A program made the translations under genes and the position numbers. From contig NZ_LT907980.1 of the NCBI RefSeq assembly GCF_900215155.1, forward strand, positions 3,224,001 to 3,288,000: a stretch of 64,000 nucleotides of DNA. The letters run 5' to 3'. The DNA is from Marinobacter sp. LV10R510-11A (GTDB lineage: Bacteria; Pseudomonadota; Gammaproteobacteria; Pseudomonadales; Oleiphilaceae). Positions 31,084 to 47,949 of this stretch are shown here, in pieces. The notes beneath the pieces are model-generated. The model was not told the DNA's origin. It did no database searches and saw only the letters and a list, made by a program, of their open reading frames with translations. Each line of letters opens with the position of its first letter. Within the stretch, counting starts at the first letter, position 1.

Positions 31084-31105
31084 AATTTGGGCTCCTTGCC
31101 TAGCA

Positions 31106-31121: not shown

Positions 31122-31239
31122 TATTATTGAGGGCGCGGATCACAGAAGTCAAACGATTACGTGGAAAAGACCTAGGGAGTGGACTAAGCTCTTGTTTTAT
31201 AAATGTATGGACAGACGTTCCTGGGCGCCAAAAACCGTA

Positions 31240-31336: not shown

Positions 31337-31615
31337 ATGATTAAAACATTCCATCACAAAGGACTGAAACGGTTCTACTCGACTGGCAGCACTGCTGGTG
31401 TTCAGCCTGATCACGCCAAGAAGCTGCGCATGCAACTCGTTGCTCTGGATACCGCCACGTCAGTTGAAGACATGACTATCCCTGGCTTTCGGCTTCATCC
31501 ATTGAAGGGGAAAGACAATGGGCGATGGTCGATCTGGGTTAACGGAAATTGGCGTATGACGTTCGAGTTTCGGGATGGCAACGCCTACATTCTTGATTAT
31601 GAGGATTATCACTGA
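31337..31615 (+). CDS. HigB-type (RelE superfamily) toxin, copy 1
   Basis: 92 residues: [17 protein letters not shown], then [14 protein letters not shown] and [31 protein letters not shown], the HigB/GraT plasmid-maintenance killer pattern. HigB toxins cleave mRNA on the ribosome. Toxin first, antitoxin second, overlapping by one base, is the usual HigBA order. First cassette after attI; exact copy at 54349. Confidence 0.9.
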
Positions 31616-31908
31616 TGACTATGCATAATCCGCCGCATCCCGGCGAGTTTATTCGGGAGGTATACTTGGAGCCTTTTGGCATCAGTTCCCGTCAACTGGC
31701 TTCCAGTCTGGGCGTTTCTCCTTCCACTTTGTCTCGGTTGCTCAAAGGGGATAGTGGTATTAGCCCGGAAATGTCTCTGCGGCTATCCAAGGTTCTTGGG
31801 CGTACTCCTGAGAGCTGGTTGGCAATGCAAGACATGCACGATCTAGGAATGGTTCGCCGGACAGTCAATTTGGATGGTATTCATCCTTTGGACTTCGAAG
31901 CAGCTTAA
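31615..31908 (+). CDS. HigA-type antitoxin, copy 1
   Basis: 97 residues with an Xre-type [41 protein letters not shown], then the HigA tail [15 protein letters not shown]. It neutralises HigB and represses the shared promoter, probably at the inverted repeat upstream. The stop codon lies in the attC R'' core. Confidence 0.92.
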
Positions 31909-32892: not shown

Positions 32893-32970
32893 CCAGTCAT
32901 TCAAGTTCGTTCCCGGCCTGGCGGCCGTCCACCGGACGGCTTTTAGCCGCCGCTTAATTCAGCGTTAGCT
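32887..32970 (+). other. attC
   Basis: R'' ACATAAC to R' GTTAGCT; arms GGCGGCCGTCC / GGACGGC. Confidence 0.85.
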
Positions 32971-33303
32971 GGTAGTGCCTTGGTCTTTTTTGGTGGCTGT
33001 GTGCCAGTGGCCTTGGCCGAAAATGGGTAGCAAAACCGGGAAGCTCTGGTTATCGCCAAGGCCGTCGGAATCCGCGTCATGCTGGCAGCTCAATCGGTCG
33101 CGGTGTTGATATAGAAAACGGTGTTTGCCGTGTGGGGCCGTCCACGAAAATCTGGTTCCGGATCTGCTAATCTCAGGTTCAGGTTCGTTCACCGCATCAT
33201 TAGCGGTAGTTTCAATCACAGTGCATCGGCGGTTTCCGGTGCAAGGGCGGCGGAGTAGGCCATCGTGTTGGTTGCCAGGGCTCAGGTTTCACAGTTGCCC
33301 CCA
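32965..33303 (+). repeat. ORF-less cassette family, copy A
   Basis: About 340 bp without a convincing gene. It starts GTTAGCTGG and ends CCAGCTAAC (perfect 9-bp inverted ends). Inside are GGCCTTGGC and GCCAAGGCC about 45 nt apart, and a small hairpin ACCGC / GCGGT. Copies B, C and D share these elements. Confidence 0.75.
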
Positions 33304-33403
33304 GCTAACCAGTCGCTGTAGTACGCGGCCTACGGCCGCCGGACGCCCTTTTCATTGCGGCTTCGCCTCCATTACAAGGGCGCCGCTAAGCTTCGCGTTA
33401 TAC
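33303..33403 (+). other. attC of ORF-less cassette A
   Basis: R'' AGCTAAC to R' GTTATAC; the same attC type follows copy D. Confidence 0.85.
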
Positions 33404-33417
33404 GTTACGGAGAATGC

Positions 33418-34164
33418 ATGCAGAAGCGTGTGATTGATAGCCAATACCAGGAACTGTTGGAGAACTTGGCTGACCTTAATCAGATGAAGCAGGTCGTTAA
33501 TCATGCGTTCAAGAGAGAGTTTGAAGTTCTTGAGCAATACAGTAATTCACAGGAATCTGCGGAAATTGTCAGTAGGGAGGCTTTTGGATTCGACAATCCT
33601 TTCACTGGGAAGCTTGAAAAATATGCGTTTCGGACAGCAACCATCGAGGATTTAAAGCTCTTAACCTACTGGCACAAAAATAGTCAGTACTGCTGGTTGC
33701 TTATGAGTGCCTACGAGAAGTTCGAAAAATTTCTGGCTTTGTCGTACTTTGAAGCGACAGGTAAACGTTCCCGAACTCTGAATCCAATGCTTCTTTATTT
33801 CTCAGATAGTTTTTCTAGCATTAAAGCTGGGGAGGCTAAAAATGCGTTTGATATTAATTTGCGTGTTGCCGTGCATTTAGTTGAGAAGATGCGGCACGCA
33901 ATAGCTCATGATCAGTGCTTAGTGCCTGATGCTACAGAGTTCACAAGTAAGGTAATTAGGCAGTCCGGGATTGGGAACGACAGGAGGCTTCACGAAGAGT
34001 TTGTGTCGCAGTTCATTTTTGAAAACAAAGTTTTCATACTGGAAGTGCCTGCGAACAACCACACGATCCTTAAGACCTTTCATGACCAGTATCGAATACT
34101 GGTGAGTTACCTTATTTCGTACGCATATTTGGTGAAGGACGCGGCGTCTCAATCCGGAGTGTAA
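33418..34164 (+). CDS. HEPN-like protein, candidate ribonuclease
   Basis: 248 residues from ATG 33418 (GGAG upstream). The protein is all-helical in appearance, and KMRHAIAHDQC (about residues 157-167) fits the HEPN R-x4-H motif (Arg and His in RHAIAH). YWHKNSQYCWLLMSAYEKFEKFLALSYF is typical of helices ahead of that motif. HEPN proteins are often RNases in toxin or phage-defence systems, usually with an MNT partner; none is adjacent here. Family assignment is from motif only. Confidence 0.5.
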   Translation: MQKRVIDSQYQELLENLADLNQMKQVVNHAFKREFEVLEQYSNSQESAEIVSREAFGFDNPFTGKLEKYAFRTATIEDLKLLTYWHKNSQYCWLLMSAYEKFEKFLALSYFEATGKRSRTLNPMLLYFSDSFSSIKAGEAKNAFDINLRVAVHLVEKMRHAIAHDQCLVPDATEFTSKVIRQSGIGNDRRLHEEFVSQFIFENKVFILEVPANNHTILKTFHDQYRILVSYLISYAYLVKDAASQSGV

Positions 34165-34167
34165 AAC

Positions 34168-34251
34168 GTATAACCAGTGCAGGCACGGCGACGCCCTTTT
34201 CATTGCGCCTTCGGCTCCATTTCAAGGGCGCGCATGCTGCAAGCGTTAGCT
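34168..34251 (+). other. attC
   Basis: R'' GTATAAC to R' GTTAGCT; the GTGCAGGCACGGCGACGCCC type seen several times in the array. Confidence 0.85.
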
Positions 34252-34586
34252 GGATTGATGTGGTGCCTTTTTGGTGGCTTGGTGCCAGTGGCCTTGGCTC
34301 AGGTTCGTAGCAAAACCGGTAACTTTCAGCTACGCCAAGGCCGTCTAAGTCGGTGATCAGTTTGGCAGCTCAATCGTTCACCGGCATTGCCATAAAATTT
34401 GGTGCTCGCCGTGTGGGGCCGTCCACGCAAACTTAGGTCTGCGCCTGGTAATCTGGCGTTCAGGTTCGTTCGCCGCATCGGCTGCGGTGTTTTAGGACAC
34501 TGTGCATCGGCGGATTTTGGTGCAAGGGCAGCGGCGGAGTAGGCTATCACTTTGAGTGCCAGGGGCTGGGCTGTCAGTTACACCCA
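34246..34586 (+). repeat. ORF-less cassette family, copy B
   Basis: Same layout as copy A: GTTAGCTGG/CCAGCTAAC ends, GGCCTTGGC/GCCAAGGCC pair, GTGGGGCCGTCCAC, and CCGCA / TGCGG hairpin. Diverged from A but alignable throughout. Confidence 0.75.
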
Positions 34587-34663
34587 GCTAACAAATCGCA
34601 GCAGTACGCGGCCTACGGCCGCCGGACGTCACTGACGTGCCGCCGCTGTGCTCAGCGTTAGCT
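34586..34663 (+). other. attC of ORF-less cassette B
   Basis: R'' AGCTAAC to R' GTTAGCT; a different attC type from that of copies A and D. Confidence 0.85.
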
Positions 34664-34999
34664 GGATTGGTGTGTGTCTTTTTGGTGGTTTGGTGCCAGT
34701 GGCCTCAGCTCATAGTTGGTAGCAAAACTGGCGAGTTTCGGTGTTTGCCCAGGCCGTCGAAATCGGTGGTTAGTTGGCAGTTCGGCGGTTCAACAGTGGT
34801 CACAGAAAGTTGGGTGTTCCGTTTGTGGGGCTGTTCGCCGTGAGCACGGTTTTGATCTGCGAATCTGGCGTTCTGGTTCATTCACCGCATCGGTTGCGGT
34901 GTTTTTGAACATCGTGCCTCGGCAGATTTTGGTGAAAGGGCAGCGGCGGAGTAGGCTATCATTTTGAGTGCCAAGAGTTGGGCCTGTCAGTTATACCCA
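34658..34999 (+). repeat. ORF-less cassette family, copy C
   Basis: Same ends and overall sequence, closest to copy B. The GGCCT...AGGCC pair is kept at five positions with mismatches inside; the hairpin ACCGCA / TGCGGT is intact. Its attC is interrupted by the first IS91-like element. Confidence 0.7.
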
Positions 35000-35005
35000 G
35001 CTAAC
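34999..35005 (+). other. attC R'' core, interrupted (3' part at 37316-37366)
   Basis: AGCTAAC is followed at once by the IS91-like element. The rest (AAGTCACGCC to GTTAGGT) resumes at 37316. Removing the element restores a complete attC. Confidence 0.7.
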
Positions 35006-35245
35006 AAATAAGGATAGGTCGCGCGCAGCCGCGACCTGATCCGGTGTTGGACGAGCCCGGTGCTTCTCTATTAAGGAAATATCATCGGCGAACTGAGAGG
35101 TGCTTTGGCCCTGGCATTGGGCGGTCATTTTCGTCAGGCCAGAGGTTCCCGTGACCCTCGGTGAAACCGATAGCCGATCTGTCCTGGTGGTGTCATAGGG
35201 TGCTCTGATCCCTCCCTGTGAGGTGCATGTCGGACGGATGTGGGT

Positions 35246-36319
35246 CTATGCTAAACATCGTCGCCGGATTGTCGGCCCGGGCCACCGGCAAGGTCGCCGC
35301 CAAAGCGTGATGCCCATGGGCTCGCCACAACAGGGGCAAACGCGTTGTTTCCGGGGTTGGGTGACGATCCCGGGTAGCGCCACCTGCAAGCGCAACTGCA
35401 GCCGGTGTAAGGTTTTGCGGGCACCGCCGTGCAGGAACCCGTATTCCCGCACCCGTCGCAGCCCCTTGGGCAGGACATGCTGCAGAACCCGCCAGAGGAA
35501 CCGGCTCGCCGGTTCGGTCAGGGTCTGCCAGCGCCGGGTCTGGCTGTCCTGGTAGCGGAAGGTGACCTGCTCACCGTCGTAATCCACGATGTTCTGCTCC
35601 CGGAGCACACCACGATACAGATAGCGGGCCAGATAGGTCAGCGCCTGGTCGCCACGGCCGACCTGCTCGCACTGGGCGACCCAGTGTTTGGGAATCGATT
35701 CCGGCAAGGCAAAGCCTTGCTCGCGCATCCGGGTGAGGAATTTGGCGCGAAACACGGTGGCCAGGGCCCGGCCGTTGAACAGGTATCGCCCGGCCCGGGC
35801 GTGCCAGTGATGGCCCGTCAGCCCGCCCCCGGGGACCACGATGTGGACATGGGGGTGGAAAGCCAAGCGGCGGGAGTGGGTGTGCAACACCCCGACCAGC
35901 CCGAGCTGGTTGCCCAGGCGTTTATCGTTGCGGGCGAACTGGCACAGCGTCTCCCGGGCGGCCTGGAACAGAGCGTGACAGGTCCATCGGAGGTGGTGCC
36001 AGGCAAAGCCCCGCAACTGGGCCGGTAGGGTGAAGGTCACCAGGAAATAATCCACCGGCAACAGCTTCTGCCGCTGCCGGCCCAGCCATTGGCTGTTGGT
36101 GCCGTGCTGACAGGCAGGGCAACTGCGATGGCCGCAGGACGGGTACGCCTGTTGCACCTGCTGACAGGCGCGACAGTGATAGCGAACCTCGCCACAGTCC
36201 GGCGTATGGCAGGCCAGAATCGACCGCAGGGCGGCGTGATGCTCCGGTCGCATACGTGCCCCGACGTGCTGCTGCAGGCTGGCCTCATGATCGCGCAGAA
36301 TCTGCGCCAGGGTGATCAT
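35246..36319 (-). CDS. IS91-family HUH transposase, copy 1
   Basis: 357 residues: N-terminal zinc ribbon (CGEVRYHCRAC, CGHRSCPAC), HUH motif FHPHVHIVVPGGG and a catalytic Tyr in TYLARYLYRG. Rolling-circle-type transposase acting on single-stranded ends. ATGA overlap with the recombinase gene upstream couples the two. Confidence 0.93.
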   Translation of the reverse strand: MITLAQILRDHEASLQQHVGARMRPEHHAALRSILACHTPDCGEVRYHCRACQQVQQAYPSCGHRSCPACQHGTNSQWLGRQRQKLLPVDYFLVTFTLPAQLRGFAWHHLRWTCHALFQAARETLCQFARNDKRLGNQLGLVGVLHTHSRRLAFHPHVHIVVPGGGLTGHHWHARAGRYLFNGRALATVFRAKFLTRMREQGFALPESIPKHWVAQCEQVGRGDQALTYLARYLYRGVLREQNIVDYDGEQVTFRYQDSQTRRWQTLTEPASRFLWRVLQHVLPKGLRRVREYGFLHGGARKTLHRLQLRLQVALPGIVTQPRKQRVCPCCGEPMGITLWRRPCRWPGPTIRRRCLA

Positions 36320-37229
36320 GGGGTCACCCAGTCAACCTGCAGGCGCTCCACCAGAGCATTAATCATCAGGGCACTGTTCTGCTGGGCCTCATGGGTCATC
36401 CGGGTGTAGCGGGCGGTGGTCACCGGGCTGGCATGGCCGAGCAGGGTCTGAATTGAGCGCAGGTTCACTCCATTTTCCAGCAGATGGGTGGCAAAGCTAT
36501 GGCGCAGGGAATGAATGTGCACATTTTTGCGGATACCGCAGTCCAGAGCGACCTGCTTGATGGCCTTCTGCACTCCACCCCGGTCCATCACCCGGGGCTT
36601 GCCGGAGGTGGCAACCGACGCATACGGCGGGTGCCCCCCGGGAAACAGCAGGTCTGGATGACGGTGAGTGGCCCAATAGCGCCGCAAGGCCTTGAGTGTC
36701 ATCAGCGGTAAAGGCACGAAGCGATCCTTCTTGCCCTTGCCACAGCGCACATGCACCCGCTCAGGTGACTGTCGACATCGGCGATGGTCAGGTTCAGGGA
36801 CTCGCTCAGTCGCAGGCCCAGACTGTAGGTGGTGAGGAAATAGACCTGATAACTGAGTTTGCGTGTGCGACTAATCAGGCGCTCGACCTCCTTCAGGGAG
36901 AGCACGTCCTGCAGGGTCTGAACCTTGGGAGCCTTGACGATAGGGACGTATTCCCAGGGCTTGCGCAGTACATACTGATAGAAACTCTGCAACGCATTGC
37001 GGGCAATCTTGACCAGACTCCAGGACCGATGCTGGACCAGATGCATGAAATACTGCTGGAGCTGATCGGTGCTAAGCTGATCGGGACAGGTCTCGAAATA
37101 GTCGCAGACCTGTCGCAGGCAACGGGTGTACAGATCGATGGTCTTGGGGCTTTTGCCGCGCAGGGTGAGTTCGGTGAGGTAGCGTTGGTGCAGTGCTTGA
37201 AAACGGGCGTGTTCGTTGGCGTTCATCAC
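36316..37229 (-). pseudogene. Tyrosine recombinase of IS91-like copy 1, frameshifted
   Basis: Same gene as 41921-42835 but with one base missing between 36760 and 36761, splitting it into 37229-36702 and 36756-36316. The catalytic HxxR and Tyr half is thereby separated from its start. Confidence 0.9.
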
Positions 37230-37315
37230 ACTTCTCCTGACAAGCCCTCCAAAATGGAAGGGGTCAGAGAAGTACAGTCGAATTTGGCCTCTGCCGCGTA
37301 GCGGCTTCGTTCAAC

Positions 37316-37366
37316 AAGTCACGCCAGCGGACGCGCTAACGCGCGCCACTGCGTTCAGCGTTAGGT
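37316..37366 (+). other. attC, 3' part
   Basis: AAGTCACGCCAGCGGACGCG to GTTAGGT, the continuation of the attC cut by the IS91-like element. Confidence 0.7.
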
Positions 37367-37372
37367 GCAAAA

Positions 37373-38137
37373 ATGGATATAGAGCAGGCTATTGGAGAGC
37401 AACTAAAGCAATGGGGGTTTTCTGTTGAGAAAATTCCAGAATCTTTGGTATCCGGACAAAAAAGGCCTGACTATAAGGCTTGGACTGACACTGAAACCTA
37501 TCTGATTGAAGTTAAATCTCGTGAAGATGATCCTGAAGAAATGCAAGAGCGCGAGAATGTGCTTAATCAGGGCGATGTATATAGCGAGCATAAGCCGCTG
37601 ATTCGAAAAAATAGGGTTTCTGGCATCATCAGGTCTGCATATGATCAGCTCAAAGATTACGGCGAATCAGAATGGTTCAAAGTAGCGTGGCTATGTGCCA
37701 CCGGCAGCGCGCAGGAAGCAAAGTTTGAACAATTCAAAGCCACGCTTTATGGAACAACTCAAATTTTTGATTTAGATGGGGACGGTTATCATCGCGTCTG
37801 TTATTTTTTTCGGAACAGCGAATTTTTTCGTTATCGGAATGTGCTGGATGCAGCTCTGATTTCAACACATACTGGAGGCACCCTTTGCCTTAATCCACAC
37901 TCTCCCAAGTTTGAAGAAATCCGCTCATCAGCACTCGGAGGCAAGCTCGGTTCGGCTGTTATTGATCCAGTTGCGAGTGAAAGCGTGGGCGATGCCTATA
38001 TCGTAGATTCTGGTGTAGATCGAAACGATGAGAATGCAGTTCTTGAGTATCTGCGAGGAAAATACGATAGACCAAAACTAAATAAAATCGATCTTGGTTG
38101 GCATTCCGGGACCGTGCAAGAACCGTCAAGCACCTAA
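37373..38137 (+). CDS. PD-(D/E)XK nuclease-like protein
   Basis: 254 residues. D33 in RPDYKAW and E46-x-K48 in TYLIEVKSR give the D...ExK core of restriction-type nucleases; the N-terminal helix supplies the preceding acidic residue. The C-terminal 150 residues are unfamiliar. The ATG lies seven bases after the attC core GTTAGGT, so the AGGTG of the core may act as ribosome site. Restriction-like or defence role is inferred. Confidence 0.6.
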   Translation: MDIEQAIGEQLKQWGFSVEKIPESLVSGQKRPDYKAWTDTETYLIEVKSREDDPEEMQERENVLNQGDVYSEHKPLIRKNRVSGIIRSAYDQLKDYGESEWFKVAWLCATGSAQEAKFEQFKATLYGTTQIFDLDGDGYHRVCYFFRNSEFFRYRNVLDAALISTHTGGTLCLNPHSPKFEEIRSSALGGKLGSAVIDPVASESVGDAYIVDSGVDRNDENAVLEYLRGKYDRPKLNKIDLGWHSGTVQEPSST

Positions 38138-38903
38138 TCGGGTAGCCGGGGGTATCTAACCCCCAGCCCCCACAACACCCTGCATGCGGATCCGCACAGG
38201 GCGTTTCCCGAAAACGTTCAGAGTAAGATGGCCGATTACCTCCTCCTACCCCAATGATGGCTTCTGATTTTGCGCCAACGTTCCTCAGTCCGGTCGGACA
38301 TGGAATCGTTGAGCTGCACAGGCTCCTCATTGATTTTCGGGTTCAGGCCTTCACCCTGTCCCGACCATTACGACGGGCGTTTGGCTACTATGCCGTCTGC
38401 TGACTTCTGCTCAATCACCGGCGGGGTTACCCCTATCGGCGCTATCGGTGTCCACCTTATTCGCTCGCAACCGCCGATGGCAACGGCTGCGCCCAGGCTT
38501 GATCGACCAGTGGCCTGACTGGTAATTGACCGATCGCTCGTTGAGCAGATCTCCCCAGATAAGAACATGCACTGTAACTGCGCAACTGCATCATTTACGG
38601 TGGCCGTCAGATCACGCGGCTTCGTCGTCTTGTGCCAACTCGCCTCCGGCCTACGCCTCATATGATGTTCTTGTTCATCAGCTCGCAGTTTTGCTAGCGG
38701 CTTCCTCCAGACCGCTCCTCACGGATTGGCCCTTGCCATTCGCTAGTGGTTAGCGTTCAATCGGTAAAACCGGCTGAACGGTGACCTTCCCACAGGGGAC
38801 TTTCACCCCATTAGTTCATGCCCATGCTGGGCGTACACAAGTGGGTGAAGCTGACCGGTACTACGCTGCGCTCCGCACCGGCAGCTTACCCAAGGCGTTA
38901 TAC
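38131..38903 (+). other. attC interrupted by the group II intron
   Basis: R'' ACCTAAC is split at 38136/38837; R' is GTTATAC at 38897. Confidence 0.75.
38137..38836 (-). other. Group IIC-attC intron, shrunken
   Basis: Minus strand: begins GTACGCCCAGCATGGGC with GGGGTGAAAGTCCCC (typical 5' domain of class C introns). Ends with a domain V-like CCCTGTGCGG/CCGCATGCAGGG hairpin and CTACCCGAT. At 700 bp it is far shorter than a full 1.8-2 kb intron: the reverse transcriptase is reduced to an N-terminal fragment (about 38661-38500). Removing exactly 38137-38836 rebuilds a perfect attC core ACCTAAC. Confidence 0.75.
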
Positions 38904-38922
38904 AGACTAAGGAGAGTCTATT

Positions 38923-39600
38923 TTGGATTTGGCTAATGTAGTCCCGTGGGGGAGATCGTTCGAGGAATACCAGAAGATGTTCGGGTTGTCGGATGATGAT
39001 TTGAACAAGAGGATTCTGGGTTGTGGCGACGGCCCTGCAAGCTTCAATGCTGAGGCGACAGAGCGCGGATACCAAATCATTTCATGTGATCCGGTATATC
39101 AATTCAACGTTGAGGAAATTCGCCGCCGGATCGACGAGGTTTACCCTGAAATCATGGCCAAGATGCAACAGGGCGCAGACAGCTATATTTGGGACTCACT
39201 GGGTAGCGTTGAGCAGCTTGGCAAGGTTCGAATGGCCGCCATGTCGAGGTTTCTTTCTGACTTTGATATTGGCCGGCAGCAAGGACGGTATGTGCCAGCA
39301 TCCTTGCCTTCGTTGCCATTCCCTGATTTTGAATTCGATCTAGCGCTCTGCTCTCACTTTCTTTTTCTCTACAGTGACCATGTAGATGCGGCAGCTCACC
39401 TGGCATCAATGCGGGAGCTGTGTAGAACTGCCTCCGAGGTTCGAGTTTTTCCTGTTGTCTCGTTGGATGGAAAGACCTCAAGGCATTTGGATTTTGTCAT
39501 GACAGCATTAGCCGATGACGGAATCGCTGTCTCGTTGCAGCCTGTCAGCTATCGCTTTCAAAAAGGCTCCACTGAGATGTTGGTGGCGAAGTCTGTATAA
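38923..39600 (+). CDS. SAM-dependent methyltransferase-like protein
   Basis: 225 residues from a TTG start with AAGGAG 8 bp upstream. ILGCGDGPASFNAEATERGYQIISCDP is the SAM-binding loop followed by an acidic ribose ligand; FDLALCSHFLFLYSD is motif IV-like. Substrate unknown; the family is often annotated as a hypothetical SAM-dependent methyltransferase on integrons. Confidence 0.7.
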   Translation: MDLANVVPWGRSFEEYQKMFGLSDDDLNKRILGCGDGPASFNAEATERGYQIISCDPVYQFNVEEIRRRIDEVYPEIMAKMQQGADSYIWDSLGSVEQLGKVRMAAMSRFLSDFDIGRQQGRYVPASLPSLPFPDFEFDLALCSHFLFLYSDHVDAAAHLASMRELCRTASEVRVFPVVSLDGKTSRHLDFVMTALADDGIAVSLQPVSYRFQKGSTEMLVAKSV

Positions 39601-39664
39601 CCAGTGGCTGTTGGCGGACGCACCTACGCTGCGCTCCGGCTCGCCGCAAAGCCAAGCGTTATAA
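39595..39664 (+). other. attC
   Basis: R'' GTATAAC to R' GTTATAA; same type as the higBA attC. Confidence 0.85.
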
Positions 39665-39682
39665 ATCAGGGGAAAGTTTGTA

Positions 39683-40609
39683 GTGATACCCAAGCATGAC
39701 CAAATTCGTATCCCGGCTTTGTCGCTCTTGGCTAAGCGCGGTCAGCTGAAGCTGCGTGAGTTCGAAGCTCCGCTTGCCAAGCACTTTGGTTTGTCCGATG
39801 ACGAAGTCCATGAAGAGTATGAGTCGGGTAACGGTAAAATTTTCTACGACCGTATCAGTTGGGCTCTGAGCTACATGAATATGGCGGGGTTGTTAAGCAA
39901 GCCCAAGCGCGGTGTTTACGGAATCAGCGATCTCGGCATGGAAAGGCTCAAGACTCCAGAGTCAGTCAACCAGTTTATCGCTTCAGAGTTCGCCAAGAAG
40001 CAAGAGAATAAGCCAAACAAGTCAAATAAGGTGGCGCTCGACGAGACAAGCCTCACTCCACAAGAAGAGCTCTACGAGTCGGCTAAGAAGATTCGCGAGG
40101 CTCGGTATCAAGAGCTCATCGATACCATCCTTTCTAAGAAGCCACGCGAGTTCGAGAATCTGGTCGTTTTGCTTCTCCAAAAGATGGGTTACGGCGGCGA
40201 GGTCAAGCAATCTGGTGCGGTCACGCCTTACACTAACGACGGTGGTATTGATGGCATTATTAAAGAAGACGTACTCGGCTTCGGCCGCATCCATATTCAG
40301 GCAAAACGGTATGCCCAAGCAGCCAGCGTAGGTAGGCCGGAAATTCAGAGCTTTGTCGGAGCGCTCGCTGTCGCACAGTCAAACAAAGGCGTTTTCATTA
40401 CAACATCGTTCTTCTCAAAGGGTGCTCTTCAGTACGCCGAGGGTCTGAACGGTAGCACCACTCTCATACTCATAGATGGCGAAACACTAGCTGAGTATCT
40501 GTATGAGTACGGTGTCGGCGTACAGGTCGAGCACACGGTTCAAATCAAAAGGCTCGATAGCGAGTTCTGGGATTCCATAGAGAATGAGGCTGGCGGGCCT
40601 GATTTATAA
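39683..40609 (+). CDS. mrr: Mrr-type restriction endonuclease
   Basis: 308 residues from a GTG start. Winged-helix N-terminal domain (about 1-95, KRGVYGISDLGMERL) and a Mrr_cat domain (about 155-285) with E158 in FENLVVLLLQKMGY, D190 in DGGIDGII and Q206-A-K208 in HIQAKRY, the D...QxK variant of the PD-(D/E)XK core. Mrr cuts DNA carrying methylated bases. Complete, so potentially active. Confidence 0.92.
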   Translation: MIPKHDQIRIPALSLLAKRGQLKLREFEAPLAKHFGLSDDEVHEEYESGNGKIFYDRISWALSYMNMAGLLSKPKRGVYGISDLGMERLKTPESVNQFIASEFAKKQENKPNKSNKVALDETSLTPQEELYESAKKIREARYQELIDTILSKKPREFENLVVLLLQKMGYGGEVKQSGAVTPYTNDGGIDGIIKEDVLGFGRIHIQAKRYAQAASVGRPEIQSFVGALAVAQSNKGVFITTSFFSKGALQYAEGLNGSTTLILIDGETLAEYLYEYGVGVQVEHTVQIKRLDSEFWDSIENEAGGPDL

Positions 40610-40610
40610 C
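40604..40610 (+). other. attC R'' core, interrupted (3' part at 42922)
   Basis: TATAAC followed directly by the second IS91-like element. Confidence 0.7.
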
Positions 40611-40850
40611 AAATAAGGATAGGTCGCGCGCAGCCGCGACCTGATCCGGTGTTGGACGAGCCCGGTGCTTCTCTATTAAGGAAATATCGTCGGCGAACTG
40701 AGGGGTGGTTTGGCCCTGGCATTGGGCGGTGATTTTCGTCAGGCCAGAAGTTCCCGTGACCCTCGGTGGAACCGATAGCCGATCTGTCCTGGTGGTGTCA
40801 TAGGATGCTCTGATCTCTCCCTGTGAGGTGCATGTCGGACGGATGTGGGC

Positions 40851-41924
40851 CTATGCCAGACATCGTCGTCGGGTTATCAGCACGGGCCACCGGCAGGGGC
40901 GCCGCCAAAGCGTGATGCCCATGGGCTCGCCACAGCAGGGGCAAATGCGTTGTTTCCGGGGTTGGGTGACGATCCCGGGTAGCGCGACCCGCAAGAGCCA
41001 CTGCAGCCGGTGTAAGGTTTTGCGGGCACCGCCGTGCAGGAACCCGTATTCCCGCACCCGTCGCAGCCCCTTGGGCAGGACATGCTGCAGAACCCGCCAG
41101 AGGAACCGGCTCGCCGGTTCGGTCAGGGTCTGCCAGCGCCGGGTCTGGCTGTCCTGGTAGCGGAAGGTGACCTGCTCACCGTCGTAATCCACGATGTTCT
41201 GCTCCCGGAGCACACCACGATACAGATAGCGGGCCAGATAGGTCAGCGCCTGGTCGCCACGGCCGACCTGCTCGCACTGGGCGACCCAGTGTTTGGGAAT
41301 CGATTCCGGCAAGGCAAAGCCTTGCTCGCGCATCCGGGTGAGGAATTTGGCGCGAAACACGGTGGCCAGGGCCCGGCCGTTGAACAGGTATCGCCCGGCC
41401 CGGGCGTGCCAGTGATGGCCCGTCAGCCCGCCCCCGGGGACCACGATGTGGACATGGGGGTGGAAAGCCAAGCGGCGGGAGTGGGTGTGCAACACCCCGA
41501 CCAGCCCGAGCTGGTTGCCCAGGCGTTTATCGTTGCGGGCGAACTGGCACAGCGTCTCCCGGGCGGCCTGGAACAGAGCGTGACAGGTCCATCGGAGGTG
41601 GTGCCAGGCAAAGCCCCGCAACTGGGCCGGTAGGGTGAAGGTCACCAGGAAATAATCCACCGGCAACAGCTTCTGCCGCTGCCGGCCCAGCCATTGGCTG
41701 TTGGTGCTGTGCTGACAGGCAGGGCAACTGCGATGGCCGCAGGACGGGTACGCCTGTTGCACCTGCTGACAGGCGCGACAGTGATAGCGAACCTCGCCAC
41801 AGTCCGGCGTATGGCAGGCCAGAATCGACCGCAGGGCGGCGTGATGTTCCGGTCGCATACGTGCCCCGACGTGCTGCTTCAGGCTGGCCTCATGATCGCG
41901 CAGAATCTGCGCCAGGGTGATCAT
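40851..41924 (-). CDS. IS91-family HUH transposase, copy 2
   Basis: 357 residues, nearly identical to copy 1, with the same zinc ribbon, HUH and Tyr motifs. Coupled by ATGA overlap to the intact recombinase. Confidence 0.93.
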   Translation of the reverse strand: MITLAQILRDHEASLKQHVGARMRPEHHAALRSILACHTPDCGEVRYHCRACQQVQQAYPSCGHRSCPACQHSTNSQWLGRQRQKLLPVDYFLVTFTLPAQLRGFAWHHLRWTCHALFQAARETLCQFARNDKRLGNQLGLVGVLHTHSRRLAFHPHVHIVVPGGGLTGHHWHARAGRYLFNGRALATVFRAKFLTRMREQGFALPESIPKHWVAQCEQVGRGDQALTYLARYLYRGVLREQNIVDYDGEQVTFRYQDSQTRRWQTLTEPASRFLWRVLQHVLPKGLRRVREYGFLHGGARKTLHRLQWLLRVALPGIVTQPRKQRICPCCGEPMGITLWRRPCRWPVLITRRRCLA

Positions 41925-42835
41925 GGGGTCACCCAGTCAACCTGCAGGCGCTCCACCAGAGCATTAATCATCAGGGCACTGTTCTGCTGGGCCTCATGGG
42001 TCATCCGGGTGTAGCGGGCGGTGGTCACCGGGCTGGCATGGCCGAGCAGGGTCTGAATTGAGCGCAGGTTAACCCCATTTTCCAGCAGATGGGTGGCAAA
42101 GCTATGGCGCAGGGAATGAATGTGCACATTTTTGCGGATACCGCAGTCCAGAGCGACCTGTTTGATGGCCTTCTGCACTCCACCCCGGTCCATCACCCGG
42201 GGCTTGCCGGAGGTGGCAACCGACGCATACGGCGGGTGTCCCCCGGGAAACAGCAGGTCCGGATGACGGTGAGTGGCCCAATAGCGCCGCAAGGCCTTGA
42301 GTGTCATCAGCGGTAAAGGCACGAAGCGATCCTTCTTGCCCTTGCCACAGCGCACATGCACCCGCATCAGGTGACTGTCGACATCGGCGATGGTCAGGTT
42401 CAGGGACTCGCTCAGTCGCAGGCCCAGACTGTAGGTGGTGAGGAAATAGACCTGATAACTGAGTTTGCGTGTGCGACTAATCAGGCGCTCGACCTCCTTC
42501 AGGGAGAGCACGTCCTGCAGGGTCTGAACCTTGGGGGCCTTGACGATAGGGACGTATTCCCAGGGCTTGCGCAGTACATACTGATAGAAACTCTGCAACG
42601 CATTGCGGGCAATCTTGACCAGACTCCAGGACCGATGCTGGACCAGATGCATGAAATACTGCTGGAGCTGATCGGTGCTAAGCTGATCGGGACAGGTCTG
42701 GAAATAGTCGCAGATCTGTCGCAGGCAACGGGTGTACAGATCGATGGTCTTGGGGCTTTTGCCGCGCAGGGTGAGTTCGGTGAGGTAGCGTTGGTGCAGT
42801 GCTTGAAAACGAGCGTGTTCGTTAGCGTTCATCAC
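41921..42835 (-). CDS. Tyrosine recombinase of the IS91-like element
   Basis: 304 residues, XerC/D-like: core-binding domain (about 1-95), catalytic domain with Arg in LGLRLSESLNL, HSLRHSFATHLLE and Tyr in TTARYTRMT. No IntI-specific extra helix. A recombinase paired with a HUH transposase occurs in some IS91 relatives. Its role is unknown; the site choice in attC makes it of interest. Confidence 0.92.
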   Translation of the reverse strand: MMNANEHARFQALHQRYLTELTLRGKSPKTIDLYTRCLRQICDYFQTCPDQLSTDQLQQYFMHLVQHRSWSLVKIARNALQSFYQYVLRKPWEYVPIVKAPKVQTLQDVLSLKEVERLISRTRKLSYQVYFLTTYSLGLRLSESLNLTIADVDSHLMRVHVRCGKGKKDRFVPLPLMTLKALRRYWATHRHPDLLFPGGHPPYASVATSGKPRVMDRGGVQKAIKQVALDCGIRKNVHIHSLRHSFATHLLENGVNLRSIQTLLGHASPVTTARYTRMTHEAQQNSALMINALVERLQVDWVTP

Positions 42836-42921
42836 ACTTCTCCTGACAAGCCCTCCAAAATGGAAGGGGTCAGAGAAGTACAGTCGAATTTGGCCTCTGC
42901 CGCGTAGCGGCTTCGTTCAAC

Positions 42922-42998
42922 CAGTCAATCAAGTTCGTTCCCGGCCTGGCGGCCGTCCACCGGACGGCTTTTAGCCGCCGCTTATCTCAGCGTTATGC
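42922..42998 (+). other. attC, 3' part
   Basis: CAGTCAATCAAGTTCGTTCC to R' GTTATGC, continuation of the Mrr-cassette attC. Confidence 0.8.
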
Positions 42999-43082
42999 TC
43001 TGGCGGGAGCCATCGTTTTTTGGTAGTTTCTGAGCAGTCCATGAGGACATCATCGATAAAACAGACCAAAGGGAGATTGGGC

Positions 43083-43403
43083 GTGGATTACTACGATAGA
43101 GAATACATATCTGCAGTTATTAACTATTTTTGGGGGGACGGCGCAGCATCGCCTCAGTCAGTAAATGAGAGATCTGCAGAGGTGATTTACAAAGCAGTCT
43201 CTGAAGCGCAGGCGTGTTCTGCATCAATGGATCTCGTTCCAAGACCCAGTGGTGGCAAACCGGGGATCTCATACATAGTTAAACAGATTGCAAGCATTGG
43301 TAAGAATATAATCTCTGGAAACACATCGGTTTACCATGTTTGTAAGGTCAAAATTAGCGCAAGCTATAAATCTGAAATAATTATGGCATTAAAAGGAATT
43401 TGA
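43083..43403 (+). CDS. Hypothetical protein, about 106 aa
   Basis: Start uncertain: GTG 43083 has GGGAG upstream; ATG 43041 or TTG 43020 are also in frame. VDYYDREYISAVINYFWGDG and a C-terminal strand-rich part. Unrecognised. It is two bases ahead of the next gene, so one two-gene cassette. Confidence 0.5.
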   Translation: MDYYDREYISAVINYFWGDGAASPQSVNERSAEVIYKAVSEAQACSASMDLVPRPSGGKPGISYIVKQIASIGKNIISGNTSVYHVCKVKISASYKSEIIMALKGI

Positions 43404-43404
43404 A

Positions 43405-43902
43405 ATGTTAAAACTCGGACTTTCTGTTCTTCTGTTATTGTTTTCTATTAGCGCATTTTCAAAGACAGATATTGAGCTGGTTTACTCAGGTATCAGATTT
43501 AAAATCCCCGGGAACTTCTCCGTGGTGGGTGATGCAGGAGATAACCAAAACATTTTAATATTCAGGTATGGGGATGAGTTGGGCAAGAGGTTCTTGGCTT
43601 TTTCAGATATGACGAATGATCAAACTATTAATTATGGGTGTCTCCCTAGTGTTTTCTTTAATAATGTTTTCTTCGATATTGATAAATCTGGATGTAATCA
43701 GGATAATATTAAGTTAATGCAAGAGTCCTTTGTGGAAGGTCGGCAAGTTGAGACGTGGTCTTCAAATGAATATTCTATCGTGTACTCCGGTGATAAAGAA
43801 AAGTCATACATCTTTATAATCGGAGATAACGGCAAACTTTTGAAGGTGGATTCAGATTTTCTGGATAACGAATCTTTCAAAAAAATGGTTAGAGGTATAT
43901 AA
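43405..43902 (+). CDS. Secreted hypothetical protein, 165 aa
   Basis: N-terminal signal peptide (LGLSVLLLLFSISAFS) then a beta-rich domain with two Cys (YGCLPS, KSGCNQ) that could form a disulfide. Very AT-rich compared with neighbours. Function unknown; paired with the gene before it. Confidence 0.55.
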   Translation: MLKLGLSVLLLLFSISAFSKTDIELVYSGIRFKIPGNFSVVGDAGDNQNILIFRYGDELGKRFLAFSDMTNDQTINYGCLPSVFFNNVFFDIDKSGCNQDNIKLMQESFVEGRQVETWSSNEYSIVYSGDKEKSYIFIIGDNGKLLKVDSDFLDNESFKKMVRGI

Positions 43903-43933
43903 GAAGGGTCATCCTGATACCTATTTCTTCATA

Positions 43934-44005
43934 GCATAACCAAGGGCTCCAGCCGACCGGTTTTCCGCTGTCGCTCCAAACCGGCGGCTGAGCCCGGCGT
44001 TAAAC
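43934..44005 (+). other. attC
   Basis: R'' GCATAAC to R' GTTAAAC, arms CCGGTTT / AAACCGG. Confidence 0.85.
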
Positions 44006-44027
44006 CCCACATAGGACCCTCCGCAGT

Positions 44028-44705
44028 ATGTCTATTCAAGCTGTGCTCTTCGATCACGACGGAACACTTGTCAACTCCGAACCGGTTCACCTAGGACTTT
44101 GGAATTCGGTTCTTAGTACATACGGGTTTCAGTTGTCAGATCAACAGTACAAGGACTTGTATGCTGGCGTTCCGACCCCCGCGAATGCATCCGACTTAGT
44201 CAGTAGGTTTGGCCTCCCGACCGATGCCATCGCCCTTGTGGAAGCGAAGAACCTTGAAACCACGCGGTATCTTAAGCGGCAATCTTTTCCTTTGATGCCA
44301 GGCGTTGCCCAAACAATTTCGTCTTTCCATCGACTAGGCTTAAAACTCGGCGTTGTCACCGGAGCGAGCGCGAATGGCGTGCGTGTAACGTTACGTGCCA
44401 ACGAGTTCGAGCCGCTATTTAGTCTTACTGTTTCAGGCGACGATGTGCTCAAAAGCAAACCTGAACCAGATTGCTATCTGCTGGCTCTTGAGCGCCTTTC
44501 CCTGAAGCCAGAAGATTGTGTAGCGATCGAGGATACGGAGCATGGACTGCGCGCAGCGGCGATGGCCGGCATCAGATGCCTCGCCATTCCTACCGAAATG
44601 TCTAGGCACCACGATTTCTCTTTAGCCTCAGCGGTTTTGCCAAATATGAATGCAGCATGTGATTATATCCAAAGGGTCTACTTGAATAGTGCACGTGGGG
44701 CTTAA
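44028..44705 (+). CDS. HAD-superfamily phosphatase
   Basis: 225 residues. Motif I FDHDGTLVNSEP (nucleophile D and acid D), motif II VVTGAS, motif III Lys in KSKPEPD and motif IV AIEDTEHGLRAA, of the beta-phosphoglucomutase/phosphoglycolate phosphatase subfamily with a helical cap. Substrate not predictable. Confidence 0.92.
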   Translation: MSIQAVLFDHDGTLVNSEPVHLGLWNSVLSTYGFQLSDQQYKDLYAGVPTPANASDLVSRFGLPTDAIALVEAKNLETTRYLKRQSFPLMPGVAQTISSFHRLGLKLGVVTGASANGVRVTLRANEFEPLFSLTVSGDDVLKSKPEPDCYLLALERLSLKPEDCVAIEDTEHGLRAAAMAGIRCLAIPTEMSRHHDFSLASAVLPNMNAACDYIQRVYLNSARGA

Positions 44706-44785
44706 CCAATCGCTTAAGTACGTTCCCGGCCTAAAGGCCGTCCACCGGATGCCCTAGACGGGCACCGCTTAGCTTCGCGTTATGT
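44700..44785 (+). other. attC
   Basis: R'' GCTTAAC to R' GTTATGT. Confidence 0.85.
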
Positions 44786-44796
44786 GAGGAGTATGG

Positions 44797-45036
44797 ATGA
44801 GTCCTACAGTATTCAGAGAGAAGGGATATCGCTTCTTTTTCTTTTCGCGAGAAGAATCTCGCATGCATGTTCATGTAGTCTCAGGTGATGGCGAGGCTAA
44901 ATTCTGGCTTGAACCAGATCTTGAGCTTGCCAAAAATTACGGGTACAACCGGCAGCAATTAAAAGAAATCGAATCATTGGTGGAGGATCACCGCGATGAG
45001 CTTGTCAGCGCTTGGAAACAGCACTTCAGCAGTTGA
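44797..45036 (+). CDS. DUF4160 protein
   Basis: 79 residues: SPTVFREKGYRFFFFSREESRMHVHV is the DUF4160 signature. It overlaps the DUF2442 gene by 41 bp; such pairs are common on mobile DNA and suspected to be toxin-antitoxin-like, without firm proof. Confidence 0.85.
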   Translation: MSPTVFREKGYRFFFFSREESRMHVHVVSGDGEAKFWLEPDLELAKNYGYNRQQLKEIESLVEDHRDELVSAWKQHFSS

Positions 45037-45262
45037 GGTGACAAATATCTCTGCACATGGTGTGTGGCTTCTTGCGCACGACCGTGAGTTTTTCATGTCG
45101 TACAAAAATTTTCCTTGGTTCAAGGAACAGCGAGTCAGTGCAATTGTGAATGTCGAGGAGCAGTCTCCTGGGCACTTCTATTGGCCTGAGCTTGATGTAG
45201 ACCTGACGGCGGAAATTATTGAGCATCCTGAGAGGTTTCCAAACGTCGCTCACAGCACATAA
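44996..45262 (+). CDS. DUF2442 protein
   Basis: 88 residues: GVWLLAHDREFFMSYKNFPWFKEQRVSAI and HFYWPELDVDLTAE fit DUF2442. Partner of the DUF4160 gene in one cassette. Confidence 0.85.
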   Translation: MSLSALGNSTSAVEVTNISAHGVWLLAHDREFFMSYKNFPWFKEQRVSAIVNVEEQSPGHFYWPELDVDLTAEIIEHPERFPNVAHST

Positions 45263-45336
45263 CCAGTGCAGGCACGGCGACGCCCTTTACATTGCGCCTT
45301 CGGCTCCATTCCAAGGGCGCGCATGCTGCAAGCGTT
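45257..45336 (+). other. attC, ending in GTT where a MITE is inserted
   Basis: R'' ACATAAC at 45257; the R' core GTT at 45334-45336 is followed directly by the MITE, and GTT recurs at 45504-45506. Confidence 0.75.
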
Positions 45337-45503
45337 GAGGCTGTAGAAAAAGGCCAAAGGCTTTTCTCGACCTTGAATTGATCAATAATTAATCTAAAAA
45401 TAGCACCTATTCTTAAAATCTGGAGCACTCATCGTCGAAAGCAGACCTAGATTTTACGTAGGAGCGTCATCGCAAAAAGGCTCGAGGGTTTTTCTACAGC
45501 CAC
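45337..45503. mobile_element. 167-bp MITE related to the IS1182-family element
   Basis: Ends GAGGCTGTAGAAAAA and TTTTTCTACAGCC, the same terminal inverted repeat as the IS at 50056, with no coding capacity. Flanked by GTT on both sides, at the same point of the attC core as the full IS. Confidence 0.8.
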
Positions 45504-45519
45504 GTTAATTGGTAAAGAT

Positions 45520-45930
45520 ATGGAAGCAGTCATCCAAGAAGAAGCAACCGGCTGTGGTATTGCGGCAAGCGCTGCTCTTGCCGGTGTAAGTTACGTCGAG
45601 GCAAATAAGAGAGCCAACGCTTTGGGTATTTACGCCGCAGACACCGCGCTTTGGTCGGATACCGAGTACGTCCGAAAGTTGCTCCGCGAATTCGATATTT
45701 CGGTATCCGCCATAGAGGCGCCATTTGAGTCATGGGAGCGTCTTCCAGACAAAGCCCTTATGGCCATCAAGTGGCGGATGAAGCGGGGCAAACCATTTTG
45801 GCATTGGGTGGTATTCGTCAGGGAAGGCGGCCAAGCAATGGTGCTGGACTCCAAAAAAGCCCTGAAATCGAACATCCGGCAAGATTTCGGACGCATTAAG
45901 CCTCAGTGGTACATCGAGGTAACCAATTAA
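45520..45930 (+). CDS. Papain/C39-like cysteine peptidase-fold protein
   Basis: 136 residues. C12 in EATGCGIAASAALAG, a His in PFWHWVVF and an Asp in AMVLDSKK are in the order of the C39/papain-like triad. Lacks a transporter or secretion partner; such small proteins are common on integrons. Activity unproven. GTTAATT and a short leader precede it after the MITE. Confidence 0.65.
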   Translation: MEAVIQEEATGCGIAASAALAGVSYVEANKRANALGIYAADTALWSDTEYVRKLLREFDISVSAIEAPFESWERLPDKALMAIKWRMKRGKPFWHWVVFVREGGQAMVLDSKKALKSNIRQDFGRIKPQWYIEVTN

Positions 45931-46011
45931 CAAATCATTCAAGTTCGTTCCCGGCCTGGCGGCCGTCCACCGGACGCCCCTATCGGGCCGCCGCTTAATT
46001 CAGCGTTATGC
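45925..46011 (+). other. attC
   Basis: R'' AATTAAC to R' GTTATGC. Confidence 0.85.
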
Positions 46012-46028
46012 ATTCGTTTCTCCTTTCA

Positions 46029-46053
46029 ATTGACATGCGTCACGTGACGCAGT
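46029..46053 (+). promoter_or_regulatory. Promoter with palindromic operator for higBA-2
   Basis: TTGACA is followed by the perfect palindrome GCGTCACGTGACGC, 15-20 bp ahead of the toxin ATG; likely bound by the HTH antitoxin. Confidence 0.6.
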
Positions 46054-46065
46054 ACGCTTCAAAGC

Positions 46066-46347
46066 ATGATCAAAACTTTCTCAGACAAACGAACTCAAGA
46101 GCTTTACTCCAAGGGGAGGTCGAAGAAATTCCCCCCGGATGTTGCTTCAAGAGCTGCCCGTAAGCTGGAATACGTGCATTTGGCAGAGCAACTAGAAGAT
46201 CTGAAAGTACCGCCTGGTAATCGGCTCCATCCGCTTTCTGGAGACAGGCAGGGACAGTACGCAATTTCAATCAACGATCAATGGCGTATCTGTTTTCGTT
46301 TTGAAGACGGTGATGCATACGACGTCGAAGTGTGCGATTACCACTGA
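46066..46347 (+). CDS. HigB-type toxin (second family)
   Basis: 93 residues: MIKTFSDKRTQELYSKG, GNRLHPLSGDRQGQYAISINDQWRICFRFEDGDAYDVEVCDYH. Same HigB/RelE fold as the cassette at 31337 but clearly diverged. Toxin-first order with the HTH antitoxin. Confidence 0.9.
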   Translation: MIKTFSDKRTQELYSKGRSKKFPPDVASRAARKLEYVHLAEQLEDLKVPPGNRLHPLSGDRQGQYAISINDQWRICFRFEDGDAYDVEVCDYH

Positions 46348-46361
46348 ATGAGGCTACAGCT

Positions 46362-46676
46362 ATGACTATTTCTAATACTGCGGGTATGCAACGGAAGCCA
46401 ACACATCCTGGTGAAATGCTCAGAGAAGACTTTATTCCAGATTACGGTCTGACAGTCGCAGGACTGGCGAAATCTCTGGGAGTGTCTCGCCAGTCCGTAA
46501 ATGAGCTATTGCGTGAACGTCGTGCAGTCAGCCCTGAAATGGCGCTTCGACTTGGCCGTTTGTTTGGTAACTCGCCAGAGTTTTGGTTGAATGCGCAGCG
46601 TTCTATTGATTTGTGGACGGCGGGGCAATTGGTTAAGGATGAGGTCTCTCGAATTAAGCCATTGCACGCTGCATAA
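46362..46676 (+). CDS. HigA-type antitoxin
   Basis: 104 residues with HTH HPGEMLREDFIPDYGLTVAGLAKSLGVSRQSVNELLRERRAVSPEMALRL and tail NSPEFWLNAQRSIDLW. Start ATG 46362; the frame is open to 46332. Partner of the toxin 15 bp upstream. Confidence 0.92.
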   Translation: MTISNTAGMQRKPTHPGEMLREDFIPDYGLTVAGLAKSLGVSRQSVNELLRERRAVSPEMALRLGRLFGNSPEFWLNAQRSIDLWTAGQLVKDEVSRIKPLHAA

Positions 46677-46754
46677 CAAGTGCAGGCATGGCGACGCCCT
46701 TTCCATTGCGCCTTTGGCTCCATTCCAAGGGCGCGCATGCTGCAAGCGTTAGCT
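46671..46754 (+). other. attC
   Basis: R'' GCATAAC to R' GTTAGCT. Confidence 0.85.
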
Positions 46755-47086
46755 GGTAGTGCCTCGGTCTTTTTTGGTGGCTGTGTGCCAGTGGCCTTGG
46801 CCGAAAGTTGGTAGCAAAACCGGCAGTTCCGTCATCGCCAAGGCCGTCAGAATCCGCGTCATGCTGGCAGCTCAATCGGTCGCAGTGTTGGTATAGAAAA
46901 CGGTGTTTGCCGTGTGGGGCCGTCCACGAAAAATTGGCTTTGAGTCTGCTAATCTGAAGTTCAGGTTCGTCGAGCGCATCGTTTGCGGTGGCTTCAATCA
47001 GGGTGCATTGGCAGTTTGTCGGTGCAAGGGCGGCGGAGTAGGCCATCGTGTTGGTTGCCAGGGCTCAGGTTTCACAGTTGCCCCCA
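46749..47086 (+). repeat. ORF-less cassette family, copy D
   Basis: Very similar to copy A along its whole length, including its attC. Same inverted ends and GGCCTTGGC/GCCAAGGCC pair; the small hairpin has changed on both arms (CGCA / TGCG). Confidence 0.75.
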
Positions 47087-47186
47087 GCTAACCAGTCGCT
47101 GTAGTACGCGGCCTACGGCCGCCGGACGCCCTTTTCATTGCGGCTTCGCCTCCATTACAAGGGCGCCGCTAAGCTTCGCATTAACT
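47086..47186 (+). other. attC of ORF-less cassette D, altered R' core
   Basis: R'' AGCTAAC; the R' core reads ATTAACT instead of GTTAACT at 47180, losing the G at the crossover point. Confidence 0.75.
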
Positions 47187-47196
47187 GTCTGAGCCT

Positions 47197-47949
47197 ATGA
47201 AAATTGTAACTTGGAACTGCAATGGAGCACTGCGACGTAAGCTAACCAAGGCGGATAGCTTACAGGCGGATGTGCTCGTGATTCAGGAATGTGAAGACCC
47301 GGCACTATCTGCTCCTGCATACCTGGATTGGGCAGGAGACTACCTCTGGGTTGGAGAATCAAAAAATCGCGGCATCGGAGTTTTCCCACGAAATGGGCAT
47401 CGCGTACAAAAGCTGGATTGGAGCGACACGTTCACCTTATCTGGCCTGAAAAGTAACAGCAGTACACTGAACTGGCACACACATAATCTCAGGCTTTTTC
47501 TGCCATTTAAAATCAACGACGAGATGACTGCGCTGGCGGTCTGGACGAAGGGCAGCAATAACGAAGCTTTTGGGTATATGGGACAATTTTGGAAATATTT
47601 ACAGATTCACGGAAGAGACCTGAGTGGTTCAAAAACGATCATCCTTGGCGACTTCAATAGCAACTCAATCTGGGATAAGCCCGACCGCTGGTGGAATCAC
47701 TCTGACGTTATTACAGAGCTGGAAGCGCTGGGGCTCCAAAGCCAGTATCACCACATCTACAAAGAAGTGCAGGGAGCAGAGACAAAACCAACTTTTTTTC
47801 TGCAGCGAAATCAGCAGAAGCGGTACCACATTGATTATGTTTTCACCTCTATGGATCTGATTGAAAGTTGTGATCTCCAAGTAGGCGAACATGATGACTG
47901 GATTTTGACCAGTGATCATGTTCCTTTGACCCTGTGCATCAACAGTTAA
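47197..47949 (+). CDS. Endonuclease/exonuclease/phosphatase (EEP) family protein
   Basis: 250 residues. Asn in TWNCNG (7-10), E31 in IQECED, ILGDFNSN, YHIDYVF and SDHVPL are the metal-binding and catalytic motifs of the DNase I/ExoIII-like fold. Substrate could be DNA, RNA or a phosphoester; no neighbouring clue. Confidence 0.9.
   Translation: MKIVTWNCNGALRRKLTKADSLQADVLVIQECEDPALSAPAYLDWAGDYLWVGESKNRGIGVFPRNGHRVQKLDWSDTFTLSGLKSNSSTLNWHTHNLRLFLPFKINDEMTALAVWTKGSNNEAFGYMGQFWKYLQIHGRDLSGSKTIILGDFNSNSIWDKPDRWWNHSDVITELEALGLQSQYHHIYKEVQGAETKPTFFLQRNQQKRYHIDYVFTSMDLIESCDLQVGEHDDWILTSDHVPLTLCINS

Follow-up and report, generated by a model that had tools for sequence, protein, structure and literature searches.

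The function of gene-less integron cassettes is an open question in the field, and it is raised anew by a chromosomal integron of Marinobacter sp. LV10R510-11A. The stretch analyzed here, called the window below, comprises 64,000 nucleotides (nt) of contig NZ_LT907980.1 (positions 3,224,001 to 3,288,000 in a 4.44-Mb genome) and holds four similar cassettes, c1 to c4. What does the body of these cassettes do, if it encodes no protein? They belong to a mobile family of gene-less cassettes, and we suggest that this family probably acts as a sense-strand RNA, serving either as a small RNA or to regulate transcription of the array, a reading that is drawn from sequence comparison and to which we give slightly less than an even chance. 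An RNA is the likeliest function, likely but unproven, and the evidence for it is weaker and more indirect than an initial annotation of the window had held.

That annotation described four integron cassettes lacking an open reading frame (ORF), and this is what they are: complete cassettes of about 345 bp whose bodies have no frame in common. Their places in the window are as follows.

32964 to 33309, plus strand: copy c1, gene-less cassette body bounded by the GTT of R' and by R'' (the cassette proper begins at 32965)
33303 to 33403, plus strand: attC of c1, type as in c4 (limits approximate)
34245 to 34592, plus strand: copy c2, gene-less cassette body
34586 to 34663, plus strand: attC of c2, a second type, overlapping the start of c3
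34657 to 35005, plus strand: copy c3, gene-less cassette body
34999 to 35055, plus strand: attC-like flank of c3, short and coinciding with the edge of a 2.3-kb IS91-like repeat (approximate limits)
46748 to 47092, plus strand: copy c4, gene-less cassette body
47086 to 47186, plus strand: attC of c4, with the R' core ATTAACT instead of GTT

The mean column identity in the alignment of the four copies is 83%, and c4 is 90% identical to c1. Each is an integron cassette in which R' (GTT...) and R'' (...AAC) bound the body and an attC follows, and it is gene-less in that the body holds no protein gene. The 9-bp inverted ends reported in the initial annotation, GTTAGCTGG and CCAGCTAAC, are present in all four copies. 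Because each body begins with the GTT belonging to one attC and closes with the R'' box of its own attC, these ends are the attC boxes R' and R'' and are not evidence for an RNA.

Spread of the cassette family

The initial annotation had called the cassette amplified and probably functional. Profile searches bear this out more strongly than it had been put, with many full-length relatives in other genomes. The family occupies 12 places in its own genome, spread over the window array and three further chromosomal sites. One query matched 41 of the 124 genus genomes, the own genome included; another query matched 21 of 97 relatives, again including the own genome. A divergent subfamily, C, occurs in 23 of the 124 genus genomes, and the union of the two lists (main family and subfamily C) comes to 47. 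An integrase match (E ≤ 1e-60) was found in 85 of the 124 genomes, in 37 of the 41 that bear the family vs 48 of the 83 others. At the order level, 7 of 390 genomes matched, one of them outside the genus, with a full-length copy at L239:7411-7759, and at the class level the single match among 369 genomes was the own genome. The plasmid, phage, Escherichia coli, order and class searches each used different single queries, and the plasmid, E. coli, order and class counts are therefore lower bounds. No phage matched c4 as query, and although 48 stretches of viral contigs held a 16-base piece, none was a family member by profile.

From 134 distinct profile matches, 115 entered a superfamily alignment after short or partial, N-bearing and a few ill-bounded sequences had been left out. 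They fall into group A (83 full-length copies), group B (9 copies without the hairpin P1 described below) and the divergent group C (23 copies). Removal of near-identical rows left 107 sequences for the covariation test, and 71 group A copies were used for the helix tests. In the copies inspected, the conserved body always has the same orientation with respect to attC. As a separate observation, one genome carries four gene-less cassettes of subfamily C in tandem (L163 9185-10569).

One copy lies in a resistance integron. Among 72,556 plasmid records, the cassette was found in one, AP027409.1, an IncN conjugative plasmid of E. coli EC521 whose source field gives Sus scrofa, faeces, Japan. There it lies unannotated in a class 1 integron, between aadA1 and qacEdelta1-sul1:

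L173 5995-6433 (AP027409.1): family member, in the order dfrA12-like, aadA1, cassette, qacEdelta1, sul1

The plasmid cassette with its attC is identical to a cassette of a Marinobacter genome (G140) at 434 of 439 bases, without a gap. Among the plasmid records, a subfamily C query found none and a subfamily B query found only AP027409.1 again; no complete E. coli genome matched c4, nor the plasmid cassette when this was used as the query in near mode. Marine chromosomal integrons thus have a non-coding cassette in common with a resistance integron, in which it had escaped annotation.

The body also occurs with many attC types. It was claimed that the same body carries three attC types in the window; two full types stand (that of c1, which is that of c4, and another in c2), whereas the third is only the short attC-like flank of c3. 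Across the family, bodies combine with 15 attC clusters at a similarity ratio of 0.85, as counted in 81 of the 83 full copies, namely those that pass a loose rule for the attC end (a GTT 51 to 150 nt downstream), the flank of c3 being counted. We also observed that the ATTAACT at window 47180-47186, in the attC of c4, may lower recombination at that junction.

Such a distribution could arise if the family were a selfish or neutral passenger, any R'-R'' body with a good attC being copied and moved and spreading without function. The high copy number and the many attC types are in agreement with this explanation, as are the near-identical copy in the class 1 integron and the fact that 62 of the 83 group A copies have their nearest relative in another genome. 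However, the substitutions per column have a variance of 31.6 at a mean of 8.1, compared with a variance of 7.3 in uniform-rate simulations, and conserved blocks persist between copies that are as little as 52% identical. Neither the strong rate differences along the body nor the block conservation is expected of neutral filler. These blocky rates argue for function and against a neutral passenger, which we regard as unlikely.

Coding capacity of the cassette body

A constrained body might be a gene. In an alignment of 44 copies, all six frames are rich in stops, and the period-3 power is ordinary, with 45 of 171 frequencies being stronger. Among pairs more than 85% identical in this alignment, 38 indels are of 1 nt and 6 are of 2 nt. 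In the set of 11 close copies around the plasmid copy, pairwise comparison shows 74 indels, each 1 nt long, and no full frame is common to the set. A codon-conservation scan gave a z score of 4.0 for coding on the minus strand (reached by 1 of 200 null alignments), but the rise is present in all six frames; because every frame rises over the same stretch, the minus-strand score reflects linked substitutions and not codons.

The frame that comes nearest to a conserved peptide ends on the TAA of R''. This TAA is present in 77 of the 83 group A copies, and 56 of these 77 have 20 or more codons open in this frame. Its final part is open throughout the set of 11 close copies just mentioned, and its last 20 codons are alike in letters within subgroups (for example, GYGVGRQGQCQGAGSVITCH). 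Its conservation is not beyond the null, however: over 24 codons, 31 of 300 simulations were as high, and over 15 codons, 171 of 300 were as high, and third positions were not the fastest. Pfam gave no match for four frames spanning the window copies. The longest frame of the plasmid copy, searched against 5.8 billion proteins, had one match, a single-member cluster on a 1.9-kb contig.

The alternative weighed here is that the body holds the remains of a protein gene, or a conserved short peptide encoded on one strand or the other. Chance frames of up to 112 amino acids (aa) occur inside the body in single copies, above the 70-aa limit of PMC11014356, and gene relics occur among the gene-less cassettes of Vibrio according to the same paper. 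The openness of the R'' frame also fits this alternative. Set against these points are the 1- to 2-nt indels and the lack of a shared full frame, of periodicity and of any frame-specific signal, on which grounds a protein or peptide was rejected. The conserved short peptide that the initial annotation had named as speaking against an RNA was looked for in the alignment, and no coding signal was found. The body is unlikely to be coding, and we consider a decayed gene or peptide very improbable.

Hairpins, covariation and promoter signals

If no protein is involved, the body would act as nucleic acid, and a structured sense-strand RNA is the likeliest form. The helices on which this reading rests are located as follows.

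33009 to 33063, plus strand: hairpin P1 of c1, arms GGCCTTGGC (33009-33017) and GCCAAGGCC (33055-33063)
33190 to 33208, plus strand: hairpin P3 of c1, the small hairpin of the initial annotation, arms 33190-33195 and 33203-33208, the outermost pair being unformed in c1
33223 to 33242, plus strand: hairpin P4 of c1, arms GCATCGG (33223-33229) and CCGGTGC (33236-33242)
34883 to 34911, plus strand: P3 of c3 in its terminator-like form, CACCGCATCGGTTGCGGTG and then TTTTTGAACA

The GGCCTTGGC/GCCAAGGCC pair was said to be kept in the four copies; it is intact in three of them, while two P1 pairs are broken in c3. The two arms of the small hairpin were said to change together, and this did not survive alignment: none of the 31 pairs changes on both sides in c1 to c4, the CCGC/GCGG core differs only in c4, where one of its pairs is broken, and the three arm versions are the same columns of the four-copy alignment read in different registers. 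The larger claim, that covariation shows an RNA, fails as it was stated, for the double changes are mainly terminal and belong to attC, although one P1 pair does co-vary. In the 44 copies, the pairs that change on both sides are five at the attC ends, one in P1 (C-G to U-A, in 7 copies) and one in P3 (in one copy); all other changes within the body affect a single side.

The terminal changes are those expected of a recombination site. Five of the seven pairs of the main terminal block (R'/R'') change on both sides in the 44 copies, and relatives with the compensated end variants GTTAGTGGC/GCCACTAAC and GTTAGTTGG/CCAACTAAC fit attC. For this terminal pairing, P0, only 4 of 1000 tree-null simulations matched the pairing and 7 matched the double changes (71 group A copies). 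It could be asked whether the whole body aids recombination as DNA, for example, by single-strand folding beside attC, since the terminal pairing lengthens the attC stem to 9 bp and P1 is conserved. Protein-coding cassettes in the same array, however, have similar attC types without such a body. In integron recombination, attC acts as the bottom strand, whereas the wobble pairs of P2 to P4 favor the top strand. A role of this kind is highly unlikely.

For the internal helices, support comes from how pairing is retained. In the 71 group A copies, the retention of P1 exceeds that in all 1000 tree-null simulations, and the retention of P3 and P4 was matched by 28 and 33 of 1000, respectively. Folds computed by group, which rest on one alignment and thus are not fully independent, predict P1 in A, A2, C1 and C2, and P3 together with P4 in A, A2 and B. 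In two of the four group B copies inspected, the P1 stem-loop is missing as a unit; the 5' half of the other two is divergent and does not contain P1. Within P2 to P4 of A1, A2 and B, there are 333 G-U cells vs 42 A-C cells. At least five T occur in the 9 nt after P3 in 40 of 53 A1, 11 of 23 A2 and 3 of 9 B copies, compared with 8.5% of all 9-mers. The P3 of c3 was picked as terminator-like, one of 5 such sites in 32900-35100, where shuffles gave 2.7 ± 1.8.

Other results weigh against a structured RNA. In a tree-null covariation test of the 107 sequences, made with our own scripts in the style of R-scape and not with R-scape itself, no column pair reached E < 0.05; misalignment within the 3' half of subfamily C would lower the power of this test. 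The RNAalifold energy is not significant, with 7 of 60 (plus strand) and 11 of 60 (minus strand) tree-null alignments being as low, and the best stem among all possible stems has a z score of 3.3, where the maxima of the simulations have a mean of 2.9 and reach 4.0. The double changes in P3 and P4 were matched by 548 and by all 1000 of 1000 simulations, respectively, and those in P1 by 24 of 1000. Subfamily C yielded neither P3 nor P4, the P3 of c1 and of c4 lacks a run of five T, and the excess of G-U is partly a matter of composition, the strand being rich in G+T. Single copies are only moderately better folded than dinucleotide shuffles, and the two strands are similar (mean z scores of −1.82 and −2.07 in a sample of 36 of the 71 copies). 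Covariation as proof of an RNA was therefore rejected, there being no significant pair, fold energy or standout stem, and the support for internal RNA structure is moderate.

The main rival to the RNA reading is that the body is a promoter or other regulatory-DNA cassette which drives downstream cassettes in long arrays, the conserved blocks being protein-binding sites. Blocky conservation fits binding sites too. The precedent for this rival is strong: most of 29 gene-less cassettes chosen from four Vibrio integrons had promoter activity on the sense strand (PMC11014356), and ORF-less cassettes of Treponema were likewise active (PMC6557892). Sequence scans of our family did not find a conserved sigma-70 promoter, although scans of this type have been reported to fail for gene-less cassettes (PMC11014356). 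With approximate weights, the best sigma-70 scores of the 71 copies were 7.74, compared with 7.03 (standard deviation 1.52) in shuffled sequences, and 8% lay above the shuffled 95% point. The place of the best score varies, the commonest columns, 245-249, accounting for 26 of the 71 copies, and 32900-35100 holds one promoter-like site where 1.3 are expected. A promoter also leaves the maintained hairpins and the loss of P1 unexplained. We regard this rival as rather unlikely.

In the RNA reading, transcription would proceed together with that of the array and would start at Pc or at a promoter lying either within the cassette or upstream of it. The GGCCUUGGC hairpin P1, absent in one subfamily, would fold; the CACCGC hairpin P3, followed by its T-run, could end or attenuate transcription; and P4 would be a third hairpin of the proposed RNA. 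The likely role would be that of a regulator of array transcription or of a small RNA.

Known RNA families and the surrounding array

No described RNA family accounts for the cassette. Among 4227 Rfam families, none matched inside the copies at the gathering score when the window was searched, and matches below the threshold were weak and to unrelated families only; at E 10, three matches to other families turned up in 32900-35100, all at chance level and none of them inside c1 to c3. The initial annotation had recommended comparison with sRNA-Xcc1, a non-coding RNA that resides on an integron cassette and has moved horizontally (PMC12444791; PMC6557892). Its model, RF02221 (87 positions), has no match at E ≤ 10 in the own genome, nor in 32900-35100, in a genome search that scored 150 of 279 first-look candidates and in which none of 14 control genomes passed the cutoff, hence without a positive control. 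The cassette family is not sRNA-Xcc1, and the likeness is one of kind alone, an integron-cassette non-coding RNA, as is proposed for the present family. In Xanthomonas, the cassette of sRNA-Xcc1 also holds symE, and both face against Pc (PMC12444791), whereas the present family is gene-less and has a single orientation relative to attC.

The gene-less cassettes of Vibrionaceae and Treponema, for which a role in transcription or as small RNAs has been proposed (PMC11014356; PMC6557892), resemble ours in having an attC and no gene. They differ in that ours form one conserved superfamily, repeated in the own genome, genus-wide and divided into subfamilies, with no conserved promoter seen. Many gcu are probably gene-less according to the Vibrio paper (PMC11014356), and the E. 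coli plasmid copy is like these in being a cassette without an annotated gene between aadA1 and qacEdelta1; unlike them, it matches a Marinobacter cassette almost base for base. No description of the family was found among the open-access literature matches listed. Gene-less cassettes and one integron small RNA (sRNA-Xcc1) were already known; what is unusual about this family is its copy number, its spread and its presence in a class 1 integron.

The cassette array adjoins an integrase gene:

30124 to 31152, minus strand: integron integrase IntI, 342 aa, with a Phage_integrase domain and a SAM-like N-terminal domain

The closest relatives of this IntI are mostly from Marinobacter, with one each from Halomonas and Alkalilimnicola among them. 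Marinobacter integrases form groups about 71 to 91% and about 41 to 51% identical to the window IntI, and the family is present in genomes of either (for example, G131 and G138).

Several other elements lie in or near the array. The repeat whose edge forms the flank of c3 has a second copy starting at 40607; the two 2.3-kb units (35002-37321 and 40607-42927) are 98.3% identical over 2321 bp, and each starts at a TAAC R'' box. The repeated unit carries an IS91-like transposase, with a Y2_Tnp domain in the first copy. On the minus strand at 38137-38728, three matches to group II intron families within about 600 bp suggest a short group II intron without its protein inside the array. Array ORFs at 31337-31908, 39683-40609 and 47197-47949 encode a HigB-like toxin with an adjacent helix-turn-helix protein, an Mrr-type restriction endonuclease and an endonuclease/exonuclease/phosphatase protein. 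A cobalamin riboswitch (25906-26101) lies directly 5' of a 940-aa ORF (26187-29009).

Taken as a whole, the family may represent structured non-coding RNAs some 300 nt long, a superfamily that spans the genus and has integron cassettes as its normal vehicle, a tentative picture built from comparative data. Its members would be modular, with an optional P1 and a terminator-like end or attenuation signal, would combine freely with many attC types, would be exchanged between species and integron lineages, and would have been captured by a class 1 integron of E. coli. The family offers more than 100 natural variants (115 aligned), a hairpin deletion that arose in nature and one copy that resides in E. 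coli. With the variants, the deletion of P1 and the E. coli copy, the RNA, promoter and passenger hypotheses are directly testable.

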